Shown here: positions 4,203 to 30,220 of the stretch, piece by piece
Layout of the letters: every line of letters starts with the position of its first letter
Numbering within the stretch: the first letter of the stretch is position 1
NCBI RefSeq assembly: GCF_029688845.1
Contig: NZ_JARUKW010000001.1
Coordinates: 310,001-374,000 of the forward strand
Length of the DNA stretch: 64,000 bases
From: Natronococcus sp. A-GB1
GTDB taxonomy: Archaea; Halobacteriota; Halobacteria; Halobacteriales; Natrialbaceae
Direction of reading: 5' to 3'
The notes under the pieces: model-generated
Seen by the model: only the letters and a program-made list of their open reading frames with translations
Database searches by the model: none
What the model was told of the DNA's origin: nothing
Program-made: the position numbers and the translations under genes

Positions 4203-4631
4203 CTACAGCTTCTTTCGCATCCGTACGTGGGGGATGCCGGCTTCCTCGAACTCCTCGCCGTACCGCTCGTACTCCACCTCCGCGTAGAAGCCGGCCGCGT
4301 GCGTCTGGGAGTGGAGTTTCAGCTCGTCGAACCCGTCCGCTCGAGCTCGCTTCTCGAGGACGGCCATCAGCTTCCGGCCGATCCCCTCGCCCCGTCGCGG
4401 TTCGAGGACGGCCACGCGCTCGACCTTGCCGGCGCCGTCCTCGAGTTCTCGAAGTCGCGCGGCACCAACGGGATCGCTCCCGTCGTAGGCGACGACGTGG
4501 ACGGCGTTGGCGTCGTACTCGTCGTACTCGAGGTCCTCGTCGACGCCCTGCTCCTCGACGAACACCGCGTGACGAACGGCGAGGGCGTCCTCGTGCTCGG
4601 TGTCCGAGTCGACGATCCGGGTTTCGATCAT
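4203..4631 (-). CDS. GNAT family N-acetyltransferase
   Basis: A 142-residue single GNAT domain. The acetyl-CoA pyrophosphate loop is visible as PRRGEGIGRKLM at about residues 78-89, preceded by the beta-4 strand VERVAVL. The N-terminus (LAVRHAVFVEEQGVDEDLE) matches the YjcF/ElaA-type subgroup, in which FVEEQ is conserved. The acceptor substrate is unknown. It is convergent with the Nramp-like gene. Confidence 0.9.
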   Translation of the reverse strand: MIETRIVDSDTEHEDALAVRHAVFVEEQGVDEDLEYDEYDANAVHVVAYDGSDPVGAARLRELEDGAGKVERVAVLEPRRGEGIGRKLMAVLEKRARADGFDELKLHSQTHAAGFYAEVEYERYGEEFEEAGIPHVRMRKKL

Positions 4632-4683: not shown

Positions 4684-5757
4684 TTACAGGTACCCCAGCT
4701 CCGCGAGCGCCTCGTCGAGCGTGACGATCGCCAGATCGTTCTCGAGGGCGGCTTCGATGGTGTACTCGAGGCGTTCCTCGGTGAACGTTTCGAACTGGGA
4801 GTGGGCGCCGACGATCGAGAGTACCCGCTCGTCCGCAGCGGTTTGCATGAACTCGTCGATCTCTTCCTCGCTCGTCTTGTCGGTCTCGATGTACATCCGT
4901 TGCATCGTCGTCGGGTCGAGGTCGTCGATCTCGTTGTGGCCGCCGCCGTACCGATGGTTCGCGACGGCGTCGTACTGATCGCGGACGATCTCCTCGACGA
5001 CGCCGTGGTAGCGGTCGTACGTATAGACGAACCCGGTGACGTCGATCCCCCACTCGGCGAGTCGGTCGTCGGTCCGATCGAGGATATCCTGTATAAACTC
5101 CTCCGGATGTCTGAGATAGCCGTCGGCGCTGACCGTTTCGGTCAGTGGCTCCTCGAGATCGACGTACGCATCGGTCGAATCGGTGCCGCCGCCGGCGACC
5201 GACGTCGTGTTGTAGGCGCCGTCGTCGTCGAACACGACGAGTGGATCCGATTCGAACTCGCCGTGTCGACCCCACTCGACGGAGACCCGGTCGTCGCCCT
5301 CGTCTGCAGCTTCGGTTAGGGGCGTGTGTCCCAGCGCCCGGTGTTCGTAGGTGTGGGACATGACGGTCCACCCAGCCTCGTAGATCTCGACCAGCTGATC
5401 GGGTTCGAGATACGCGTCAGAATCCTGTTCCATCAGACCGGGACAGACGGCGAGACAGCCCGGAACCTCGTACTCCTGGTGAACCTGGTAAGTGAACGTG
5501 TAATCCTCGATCGGGCTGTCGTCGTACGTGAAGACGAGCATCCCCTCGCTGCCCTCGAGCCGTTCCTCGAGGTCGTCGGCCCGTTCGTCGTCGGCTTCCT
5601 CGTCCGCCGACTCGCCGTCCCCGTCTCCGTCCGACTCGTTCCGACCGTCGTCGCTGTCACCGTCTTCGTCCGTATCCCGCTGTGAGACTCCGTACGCGGT
5701 AGCGGCGCCGCCGGCTGCGGTGACCCCGGCGACCGCCAGCAGATTCCGGCGGCGCAT
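4684..5757 (-). CDS. exported polysaccharide deacetylase (NodB fold), copy 1
   Basis: A 357-residue protein. The N-terminus MRRRNLLAVAG with a following hydrophobic stretch is a Tat-type signal. Residues about 28-66 are a D/E/S-rich linker, as usual for haloarchaeal surface proteins. The catalytic domain starts at about residue 72: TYDDS (D79-D80) is NodB motif 1 and SHTYEH (H135, H139) is the metal-binding motif 2. Motif 3 is not obvious because an inserted beta-rich segment follows. It likely deacetylates an N-acetylated glycan outside the cell. It is a tandem paralogue of the gene at 6051-7139, including the upstream region. Its ATG directly follows the TAG of a 53-codon leader ORF. Confidence 0.85.
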   Translation of the reverse strand: MRRRNLLAVAGVTAAGGAATAYGVSQRDTDEDGDSDDGRNESDGDGDGESADEEADDERADDLEERLEGSEGMLVFTYDDSPIEDYTFTYQVHQEYEVPGCLAVCPGLMEQDSDAYLEPDQLVEIYEAGWTVMSHTYEHRALGHTPLTEAADEGDDRVSVEWGRHGEFESDPLVVFDDDGAYNTTSVAGGGTDSTDAYVDLEEPLTETVSADGYLRHPEEFIQDILDRTDDRLAEWGIDVTGFVYTYDRYHGVVEEIVRDQYDAVANHRYGGGHNEIDDLDPTTMQRMYIETDKTSEEEIDEFMQTAADERVLSIVGAHSQFETFTEERLEYTIEAALENDLAIVTLDEALAELGYL

Positions 5758-5919
5758 CTACGGTTCACCTCGAGTCGGCCACCGATTCGAGGCGGCTTCG
5801 GTCCTGGTACCCGTTGATCGCCCGTTCGCGTCGTCTTCGGTTCGTTCGAGCCGGTCGGTTCTGGTCGAACGGTATCGCTCCCCCTTCGAGATCCGACTGC
5901 ATACCCCCTCGGGTGTCAT
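5758..5919 (-). CDS. putative 53-aa leader peptide upstream of deacetylase copy 1
   Basis: An ATG at 5919 opens a 53-codon frame that ends in TAG immediately before the deacetylase ATG (TAGATG). Residues start MTPEGVCSRISKGERYRS and end RGEP. The second deacetylase has a leader of exactly the same length with M-x-x-EG-x-x-SRIS-x-GE-x-YRS at its start and RGEP at its end. A TATA-like box lies about 35 bp before this ATG at both loci, so transcription should begin just in front of it. Codon differences between the copies are not biased to third positions, so a conserved non-coding leader remains possible. Confidence 0.4.
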   Translation of the reverse strand: MTPEGVCSRISKGERYRSTRTDRLERTEDDANGRSTGTRTEAASNRWPTRGEP

Positions 5920-5948
5920 ATCCTTGTTCAGACAGTTCACCTGCGCGA

Positions 5949-5975
5949 CGTTATAATGCTCTCCATATCTCTCGT
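5949..5975 (-). promoter_or_regulatory. conserved promoter block, deacetylase copy 1
   Basis: On the complement this block contains ATTATAAC preceded by an ACGAG-GATAT element. It aligns base by base with 7331-7357 in front of the second deacetylase. Both sit the same distance from the leader ORF start, so it is most likely the BRE/TATA region plus an upstream activator site. Confidence 0.5.
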
Positions 5976-6050
5976 GGCGTTCGTCGAGCCCGAGAGAACT
6001 GACGTTGATCCGTCGACACGGCCGAGCCAAAGTGATCGTCGAAATCGGTG

Positions 6051-7139
6051 TTAACGGAGTTCGAGTTCGTCGAGCGCCTCCTCCATCGTGACGATCGCGA
6101 GATCGTGTTCGAGAGCGGTCTCGATCGTATACTGGAGTCGCTCCTCGGTGATCGTCTCGAAGTGTGAGTGGCCGCCGACGACCGAGAGCACGTCGTCCTC
6201 GGCGGCGGTCTGCATGAACTCCTCGATCTCCTCCTCGGTTGCCCGATCGGTTTCGATGTACATCCGCTGCATCGTCGTCGGATCGAGGCCGTCGATCTCG
6301 TTGTGGCCGCCGCCGAAGCGGTGGTTCGCGACGGCGTCGTAGTGATCCCGAACGAGATCTTCGATGAGTCCGTGGTAGCGCGTGTACGTGTAGACGAATC
6401 CGACGACCGTGAGCCCCCACTCCTCGAGCTGTGCGTCCGTGTCGTCGAGGATATCCTGCATGAACTCCTCCGGATACCTGACGTGGCCCGAGGCGTCGAT
6501 CGTCTCCTCGAGGGGCTCGGCGAGTTCGACGTACTCCCCGGTGGAGTCGCTCCCCCCGCCGGCGACGGTCGCGGTCGCTCTGTTCTCGTCGTCGAAGATC
6601 ACCAGCGGATCCTCCTCGATGTCCGCGTGTCGGTTCGCCTCGACGTAGATGCGGTCGTCTCCCTCCTGAGCCGTTTCGGTCAGCTCTATCTCGCCGAGTG
6701 CACGGTGGTAGTAGGTGTGGGACATGACCCCCCAGCCGTCGTCGTACATCTCGCGAAGCTGGTCCGGAGAGAGGTACTCGCCGCCGCCGTCGTCTTGCAT
6801 CCAGCCGGGACAGGCCGCGACGCAGCCGGGAACGTCGTACTCCTTGTGGACCTGGTAGGTGAGCGTGTAGTCCTCGATCGGACTGTCGTCGTACGTGAAG
6901 ACGAGCATCCCCTCGCTGCCCTCGAGGCGTTCCTCGAGGTCGTCCGCCTGTTCGTCGTCGGCCGACTCGTCGCTCGACTCCTCGCTTCCCGACTCGTCAT
7001 CCCCGTTTCCGTCCGACCCGTTTTGATCGTCGTCGGCCCCACTGTTCTCGTCGGAATCGCGCTGAGAAACCCCGTATGCGGTAGCGGCGCCGCCGGCCGC
7101 AGTGACCCCCAGGACCGCCAGCAGGTTCCGCCGACGCAT
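6051..7139 (-). CDS. exported polysaccharide deacetylase (NodB fold), copy 2
   Basis: A 362-residue tandem paralogue of the gene at 4684-5757, similar along its whole length. It has the same Tat-type start (MRRRNLLAVLG), an even longer D/E/S/N linker to about residue 70, TYDDS as NodB motif 1 and SHTYYH as motif 2. The C-terminal half conserves a VGGHSHFET block that is VGAHSQFET in copy 1, and this may supply the third catalytic histidine. The pair arose by local duplication that also copied the leader ORF and promoter. Separate promoters mean the two could be differently regulated. Substrate is not known; cell-surface glycan or a secreted polysaccharide is likely. Confidence 0.85.
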   Translation of the reverse strand: MRRRNLLAVLGVTAAGGAATAYGVSQRDSDENSGADDDQNGSDGNGDDESGSEESSDESADDEQADDLEERLEGSEGMLVFTYDDSPIEDYTLTYQVHKEYDVPGCVAACPGWMQDDGGGEYLSPDQLREMYDDGWGVMSHTYYHRALGEIELTETAQEGDDRIYVEANRHADIEEDPLVIFDDENRATATVAGGGSDSTGEYVELAEPLEETIDASGHVRYPEEFMQDILDDTDAQLEEWGLTVVGFVYTYTRYHGLIEDLVRDHYDAVANHRFGGGHNEIDGLDPTTMQRMYIETDRATEEEIEEFMQTAAEDDVLSVVGGHSHFETITEERLQYTIETALEHDLAIVTMEEALDELELR

Positions 7140-7301
7140 CTACGGCTCACCTCGAGCCGACAGCCAGCTCGGAGGTCCTCCGACTCCGATGGCCGTTCGT
7201 CGCTCGGACGCGTTGTCCACGGTTCGCTCGGCCTCGCTGGCGCCGACCGATCGGTAGCCTTCCCCCGTCGAGATCCGACTGTGTGCTCCCTCGAGTATCA
7301 T
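7140..7301 (-). CDS. putative 53-aa leader peptide upstream of deacetylase copy 2
   Basis: Same length and position as the leader at 5758-5919: ATG at 7301, TAG abutting the deacetylase ATG. It begins MILEGAHSRISTGEGYRS and ends ARGEP. The middle is poorly conserved between copies. The overlap-like TAGATG junction would couple translation of the deacetylase to the leader. No known family was recognised. Confidence 0.4.
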   Translation of the reverse strand: MILEGAHSRISTGEGYRSVGASEAERTVDNASERRTAIGVGGPPSWLSARGEP

Positions 7302-7583
7302 GTCTTCGTTCCGATGTCTCTTCGGCGCTACTTCATAATCTTCTCTATATCCCTCGTAATACTCGACGAAACTGATAGATATGAGATCGATCTTCGGAGT
7401 GGTCGAACGTATCTACCCAGTTAATATGGTTTCTGTAAGGAATCCCTCGTCCTGAATTTTGAAATTCGTCCCTATGCCGTCTCTAAAACGGAACCGCGTA
7501 CCCCGGCGATTCGGCCGTGGCGAGGCTATCCCCTACTTAAACTGCTTGTCGAGCACCGTCAGATCAAAAAAGCAGACCAGAAC
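7302..7583. other. intergenic region between leader ORF and hairpin array
   Basis: This stretch has lower GC than its neighbours. It holds the promoter block of the second deacetylase (7331-7357). The rest, about 7360-7583, has no supportable reading frame and no recognised RNA. A tcaaaaaag run at 7564-7572 gives a T-tract on the complement behind icd and may end its transcript. Confidence 0.4.
7331..7357 (-). promoter_or_regulatory. conserved promoter block, deacetylase copy 2
   Basis: On the complement it reads ACGAGGGATATAGAGAAGAT followed by TATGAAG. It matches 5949-5975 with conserved spacing of about 35 bp to the leader ATG. This is consistent with a TATA box and an upstream element retained after duplication. 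Confidence 0.5.

Positions 7584-7706: not shown

Positions 7707-7721
<15 letters not shown>
7584..7721 (-). repeat. array of five perfect stem-loops with degenerate copies of a gene 3' end
   Basis: Five perfect inverted repeats follow each other: 7584-7598 (6-bp stem), 7610-7631 (9), 7636-7662 (12), 7668-7689 (9) and 7695-7721 (11). The last one carries the icd stop codon in its loop. On the icd strand, two further reading-frame ends follow the real one. They are 17-residue strings ending DDSEKLS and DDIEELS with TAG in the hairpin loop, parallel to the icd end NIEKLA-TAA. Both share F-x-Q-S nine residues before the end. The array looks like a serially duplicated gene-end/terminator unit. Confidence 0.6.
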
Positions 7722-8969
<1,248 letters not shown>

Positions 8970-9166
8970 CTCGTCTGTACCGTGCTCCGATGGGGCTAAA
9001 AGGGCTCCCATTTCCGCCGATGTTGCATCCGATTTCCACCGTCAATCGGTCGACCGAAGCCGATCGTCGAAAAATCCGCTCGAGCACCCCTCATACCGGT
9101 AAAACACAGTTTCGATCGTGACACACTCGTTCGTCGGCTGTCGAACCCGTCTCCGACGAACGGCGA

Positions 9167-29684: not shown

Positions 29685-30011
29685 CTACCACTCCTGGCCG
29701 GCGGGTTCGGCCTGCCGCGGTTCCCCCTCGTCCTCGGGCGTCTTCTCCCCGCGGACGACGAAGTACGCGATCGCGGCGACCACGCCGAGCGGGAAGAACA
29801 GGAACAACAGCCCGGCGGTGCCGAGCGCCCAGAGGAGTTCGTTGTTCTCCCGTTTCGAGGCGTCCTTGTAGATCCAGTAGGCGACGCCGATCGTGATCAC
29901 CAGGAAGACGAGCGAGACGGCCAGCGCGATGAGAACGAACGTCGACTCGTCTATCGGCAGCTCCTCGCCTTCCGCCTGAAGCACGAACGCGGCGTTGAGT
30001 AGCTGCAGCAT
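29685..30011 (-). CDS. small membrane protein with two helices
   Basis: A 108-residue protein with a possible third, weak N-terminal hydrophobic segment (LLNAAFVLQA) and two clear membrane helices at about 24-46 and 59-84, separated by the charged loop YKDASKRENNELLWALG. The C-terminal 20 residues are polar. YWIYKDASKR-type loops recur in small haloarchaeal membrane proteins of unknown function. No operon partner is close. Confidence 0.65.
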   Translation of the reverse strand: MLQLLNAAFVLQAEGEELPIDESTFVLIALAVSLVFLVITIGVAYWIYKDASKRENNELLWALGTAGLLFLFFPLGVVAAIAYFVVRGEKTPEDEGEPRQAEPAGQEW

Positions 30012-30220
30012 CTACGTTCCCTCCACCGGCTCGAGCGACGAGCGATTCGGTACGCCTCGTCTCGAACCGGGACCACCGATCCGGCTGACGATCCGTTCAC
30101 GTATCATTTGTGTCATGTCCTGTATACACACACTCATCCCCAGCGCACTATATTTTTTGCGGTGAGATTGGCTGTAATCGGATGGTCGAGTGACGTTACG
30201 CCGCTGCGGACGGGTTACGG
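30012..30220. other. intergenic region left of the insertion sequence
   Basis: No gene was recognised. A strong AT-rich element (ctatattttttgcg, about 30148-30161) could be a TATA box in either direction. About 60 bp after it begins the left end of the insertion sequence. Confidence 0.35.

Follow-up and report, generated by a model that had tools for sequence, protein, structure and literature searches.

The window analysed here is a stretch of 64,000 nucleotides from Natronococcus sp. A-GB1. On its minus strand, a gene for isocitrate dehydrogenase (IDH) is followed by two tandem NodB-type deacetylase genes and a GNAT gene, and each deacetylase is preceded by a short upstream open reading frame (uORF), its leader. 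In gene order, the features of the locus are:

7707-9011, minus strand: isocitrate dehydrogenase (TIGR00183)
7333..7338, minus strand: TATA-like TTATGA; predicted transcript start at 7309, best position -8 from the leader ATG
7140..7301, minus strand: leader uORF of the IDH-side deacetylase, 53 codons, ATG...TAG; of the same length and open in N. amylolyticus and Natronococcus sp. A-GB7
7147..7153, minus strand: Shine-Dalgarno (SD) sequence GAGGTGA in the leader end, 7 nt before the deacetylase ATG, within the RGEP codons; duplex -15.3 kcal/mol, top 1.3% of leading genes
6051..7139, minus strand: IDH-side deacetylase, Polysacc_deac_1 (NodB-type), 362 aa; Pfam PF01522, E 7.4e-10
5951..5956, minus strand: TATA-like TTATAA; predicted transcript start at 5926, best position -7 from the leader ATG
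5758..5919, minus strand: leader uORF of the GNAT-side deacetylase, 53 codons, ATG...TAG; the same in A-GB7
5765..5771, minus strand: SD sequence GAGGTGA in the leader end, 7 nt before the deacetylase ATG; duplex -15.3 kcal/mol
4684..5757, minus strand: GNAT-side deacetylase, Polysacc_deac_1 (NodB-type), 357 aa; Pfam PF01522, E 2.3e-9
4203-4631, minus strand: GNAT gene

Both deacetylases are secreted sugar-deacetylase genes. Their PF01522 scores (37.7 and 39.3 bits) passed the Pfam gathering score of 23.1, the two neighbours are 73% identical, and the protein encoded at 6051..7139 begins with the twin-arginine-like sequence MRRRNLL. A literature search returned no paper naming both Natronococcus and polysaccharide deacetylase.

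The initial annotation of this DNA had described twin 53-codon frames with a TAG directly before each deacetylase ATG, and these were found at 5758-5919 and 7140-7301 of the minus strand. Each leader is in frame with its own deacetylase, with 0 nt between stop and start codon (TAG/ATG). Such a junction is rare, as a stop codon abutted the first ATG in only 7 of 300 genes from a 400 kb sample of the genome, two of the seven being the deacetylase genes. The two leaders share M-x-x-EG-x-x-SRIS-x-GE-x-YRS at the start and RGEP at the end, as had been stated; the RGEP likeness is the SD sequence read as codons. The near-identical TATA block, expected about 35 bp upstream, was recovered as a TTAT 37 nt before each leader ATG. 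From the TATA block through the ATG, the two leader regions can be aligned without gaps, and the 162-nt leaders are 68% identical (110/162). Since the two leaders of the window are copies, their mutual likeness does not amount to two observations.

Leaders across Natronococcus

The syntenic slot was defined as IDH - deacetylase(s) - GNAT, and all slot members were taken in. It was covered in seven genomes, namely this genome, N. amylolyticus, Natronococcus sp. A-GB7, N. pandeyae, N. jeotgali, a MAG and G003 (occ). The same design was found in the slot of the six other genomes, where the leader ORF is open in every copy and ends at the start of the gene. Frameshifts and stops in homologous leaders, which the initial annotation had named as evidence against a translated leader, were looked for, and all slot leaders of the seven genomes are open. 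The leaders in the slot have 53 codons (five loci), 30 codons (two), 56, 63 and 48 codons (two), while two further N. jeotgali copies outside the slot carry leaders of 44 codons. The distance from stop to start is 0 (TAG/ATG) in 12 loci and +1 in one, inside the range of about -8 to +6 nt of haloarchaeal termination-reinitiation pairs. The exception is an N. jeotgali copy that reads TAGAGTG, with the TAG one base before a GTG start and the leader frame open up to the TAG.

The leaders fall into three types, between which no reliable alignment was obtained. Type A comprises the leaders of this genome, N. amylolyticus and A-GB7; type B those of the GNAT-side copies of G003 and N. jeotgali, of the MAG and of N. 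pandeyae; and type C those of the IDH-side copies of G003 and N. jeotgali and of the extra N. jeotgali copies. The persistence of the layout in leaders of other Natronococcus species that can no longer be aligned is stronger evidence than the likeness of the twins.

Among deacetylase paralogues elsewhere in the genomes, the arrangement is mostly absent. The deacetylase phylogeny was not resolved, with the N. jeotgali copies clustering as if homogenised and leaderless paralogues interspersed with leader-bearing ones, and the tree gave no demonstration of a single origin for the TAG/ATG leaders. Several near-copies of the gene are present in the N. jeotgali sequences (L039:1450-4129, L040, L041), which also contain assembly gaps (N) and show signs of homogenisation between copies. 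Other Natronococcus deacetylase paralogues (L036, L038, ~2600-2760) have an upstream TTTAAAGCTTATCACAG block, which resembles the AAAAGCTTAT promoter-like block of type B leaders.

Promoter positions were predicted with a matrix trained on 234 leading genes of this genome, in which the TATA signal peaks at -29 to -26. The best predicted transcript start lies at -7 or -8 from the leader ATG in type A (5/5) and at -9 to -11 in type B (4/4), while the matrix gives no such layout for type C (occ_2, jeo_2, jeo_3). For the window, the best positions (5926 and 7309) agree with the transcript starts of 5927 and 7309 that had been proposed earlier. The term leaderless, used in that proposal, is better replaced by near-leaderless, as the predicted 5' UTR has a length of about 7-11 nt. 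A leaderless promoter directly at the deacetylase ATG scored negative in all loci, and a leaderless deacetylase start was rejected as an alternative on these predictions.

An SD sequence lies inside the end of the leader in 13 of 13 loci, with duplex energies of -10.0 to -15.7 kcal/mol that belong to the top 0.4-6% of leading genes. The median is -9.3 for coupled genes and -4.5 for leading genes, and the deacetylase loci are typical of coupled genes. The energies are those of duplexes with the anti-SD sequence.

Multiplied over six leaders of independent length, the chance of an open frame is 4e-4, and about 2e-6 when the in-frame ATG-TAG distance is added, both figures being rough because start codons were picked after the ORFs had been seen and because jeo_3 has no clear promoter. 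Each pairwise openness test was unremarkable (0.23-0.86), GC-rich DNA often being open by chance. What appears to be kept across the leaders is a first AUG located 7-11 nt downstream of the predicted transcript start (nine loci), an open frame, an abutting stop and an SD.

Peptide, RNA structure and translation of the leader

A comparison of dN/dS over the homologues, suggested by the initial annotation, gave values around 1 for the leaders (0.72-1.58) and of 0.15-0.29 for the deacetylases (type A orthologues and paralogues). The changes in type A leaders are scattered over the three codon positions (e.g. 10/13/9), and synonymous changes in the leaders are at or below the expectation from random placement. 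The GC content at third positions, 0.33-0.72, is not gene-like, as would be expected of a peptide-neutral uORF and equally of untranslated DNA. A family search with the leader peptides gave no match. These data bear on the proposal that the leader codes for a functional small protein that partners the deacetylase. An equal length and a common N-terminal motif in five related loci would fit such a partner, but the substitution pattern, with no synonymous excess, largely refutes it as far as sequence comparison can tell, and in other species the leaders have lengths of 30-63 codons and unrelated sequences. We consider a small protein partner very improbable. A conserved small protein gene was likewise rejected as a candidate, as neither dN/dS nor the codon-position counts showed purifying selection on the peptide.

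The initial annotation had also considered attenuation. In that reading, a regulatory leader peptide or attenuator would sense a signal through the speed or arrest of the ribosome on the leader and would set deacetylase expression. Regulatory uORFs are known in other prokaryotes (e.g. PMC8092293), and in the own_1/own_2 leaders changes are fewest in the initial 54 nt and the final 27 nt. Against this, no codon run or peptide conserved across the leader types was found, the folds of four leaders were no better than those of shuffled sequences (z-scores -0.90, -0.35, +0.84 and +0.11), and an Rfam search of the deacetylase leaders gave no match. A structured RNA leader or riboswitch was rejected on the same folds and the lack of a known family, and the structure-based form of attenuation fell with it. 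With no peptide conservation and no unusual fold, the leaders lend no support to a small protein partner or to a structural attenuator, and a regulatory leader peptide seems improbable to us.

Readthrough of the TAG would yield an N-terminally extended deacetylase. The leader is in the frame of the gene and nearly all copies use TAG; however, the extension would sit before the twin-arginine-like signal, and in one copy the stop is out of frame with the gene. No pyrrolysyl-tRNA synthetase scored above the cut-off in the genome, and TAG as a pyrrolysine codon was rejected on this ground. Of all the readings, we give readthrough the least credence.

The main rival to a translated leader is a plain 5' untranslated region with an SD, in which the ORF would be fortuitous in GC-rich DNA, and TAG and ATG would be kept as initiation context or by shared descent. 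It would agree with a leader that changes about as fast as the synonymous sites of the gene (JC 0.06/0.23/0.42, compared with dS 0.10/0.26/0.69), with other reading frames that are also open in some cases, and with the third-position GC. Luck would be needed, however, for an open frame, a first AUG and an abutting stop in leaders that can no longer be aligned, and one N. jeotgali leader is open to its TAG despite the gene start being offset by one base. Moreover, in Haloferax volcanii SDs have been reported to be non-functional for de novo initiation at 5' UTRs and to be used in termination-reinitiation (PMC6728339). We therefore regard an untranslated region as rather unlikely, although it is the strongest competitor.

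Since haloarchaeal SDs are reported to be active in termination-reinitiation and not in de novo initiation, we read the leaders as peptide-neutral uORFs that probably carry ribosomes to the deacetylase start. The deacetylase mRNA would begin at the predicted position 7-8 nt before the leader ATG. A ribosome would initiate at this first AUG and translate the short ORF, whose peptide would be irrelevant; it would then terminate at the TAG and reinitiate at the abutting ATG, assisted by the SD in the last leader codons. The leader would thus be a ribosome-delivery (termination-reinitiation) uORF with the peptide as a by-product, and deacetylase output would depend on initiation at the uORF and on the efficiency of reinitiation. 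The sequences themselves show the layout and its retention throughout the genus, the lack of constraint on the peptide, a strong SD and a matching promoter; we infer the transcript start, the translation of the uORF and the reinitiation. The interpretation suggested by the initial annotation is partly supported: a translated, coupled leader is favoured by frame, ATG, stop and SD being kept in all slot leaders and by the leader ATG being the predicted first AUG in nine loci, whereas its small protein and structural attenuator find no support.

The strong SD, a leader of 90-190 nt, an AUG near the predicted transcript start and the abutting stop would fit the reinitiation mechanism described for H. 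volcanii. There, translation of the downstream gene was abolished when the upstream ORF carried a premature stop (PMC6728339), and coupling was clearly reduced at a spacing of 13-14 nt, near zero at 22-23 nt and lost by about 20 nt (PMC10666635). Two observations in H. volcanii count against the proposed layout: 5' UTRs of 7-11 nt are uncommon, and coupled pairs mostly overlap by 4 or 1 nt, a distance of 0 being less common.

Further leader ORFs and known systems

In 1.17 Mb of this genome with 686 leading genes, we counted uORFs ending at coupling distance (-4, -1 to +2) from the gene. ATG-uORFs at a predicted promoter did so in 24 of 88 cases and promoter-less control ATGs in 45 of 373 (odds ratio 2.7, P = 7e-4), where some of the promoter uORFs counted are ordinary small genes. 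A first, overwhelming excess at -4 was discarded, as the promoter-less control cut the effect to this odds ratio; it is partly mechanical because ATGA itself contains a stop. The median SD energy was -9.8 for promoter-placed coupled uORFs, -5.4 for coupled promoter-less ATGs and -3.6 for non-coupled uORFs. Several promoter-proximal ORFs of 11-15 codons that overlap the starts of large genes (ATGA) and have a strong SD were seen in this sample, for example at C34:128789, C34:145383 and C1:401398, and are candidates for launchers of the same class.

Two further leader ORFs were found:

30012-30116, minus strand: second TAG/ATG leader ORF, 34 codons, before a 108-aa membrane-like gene at 29685-30011
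L134:1501-1871 (own genome C12:298790-299160) and L135-L142: leader of glmS (TIGR01135)

The uORF at 30012-30116 is open and of equal length in four genomes (this one and three relatives), but G003 (L133) lacks it in this form; of six dN/dS comparisons, five gave values of 0.5-1.0 and that of the closest pair a higher one. Ahead of glmS, each of the nine Natronococcus genomes has an ORF of 37-43 codons that ends in TAATG or TGATG and has indels in multiples of three. This leader is strongly conserved and consists of a TATA-like block, a hairpin-rich stretch (CCGGGTC...GACCCGG) and the ORF, with GGAGGT before the glmS start; an Rfam search gave no match. The ORF mostly begins with MTRYRTAR, and the start of the peptide is more conserved here. 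Given this conserved start and the hairpin-rich region upstream, it may be a different case, and it could be a regulatory leader of glucosamine-6-phosphate synthase.

As haloarchaeal SDs would be unable to recruit ribosomes de novo, a general class of peptide-neutral launcher uORFs might serve the genes that have a 5' UTR, as near-leaderless mini-ORFs with the sole role of ferrying ribosomes to an internal SD and start codon. We put this generalisation to haloarchaea forward tentatively; its members would be the deacetylase leaders, the uORF at 30012-30116 and perhaps the glmS leader. If true, it would give one answer to how translation takes place behind 5' leaders in organisms whose mRNAs are mostly leaderless and whose SDs recruit no ribosomes de novo, namely by making the leader itself a translatable, sequence-free ORF. 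Many unannotated short ORFs would then be real translation events without a functional protein, which would bear on small-protein annotation and on ribosome profiling.

Short ORFs before larger haloarchaeal genes are known from H. volcanii, where uORFs of 15-31 aa occur in long 5' UTRs (PMC4983044, Table 2). That study presented them as small proteins with a low isoelectric point, coupling not being part of its description, whereas the deacetylase leaders are rich in Arg, Ser and Gly and abut the start codon. A synthetic leaderless bicistronic design in Corynebacterium glutamicum likewise combines a leaderless promoter, a short leader ORF and a main gene (PMC10367133); that design is engineered and bacterial, while the deacetylase leaders are natural and archaeal. 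In the termination-reinitiation (TeRe) pairs of H. volcanii (PMC6728339, PMC10666635), the upstream ORF is itself a genuine gene and most junctions are at -4 or -1, whereas the deacetylase leaders are mini-ORFs without peptide constraint and with a junction of 0 (TAG/ATG). Both have adjoining stop and start codons and an SD inside the upstream ORF, and both come from haloarchaea.
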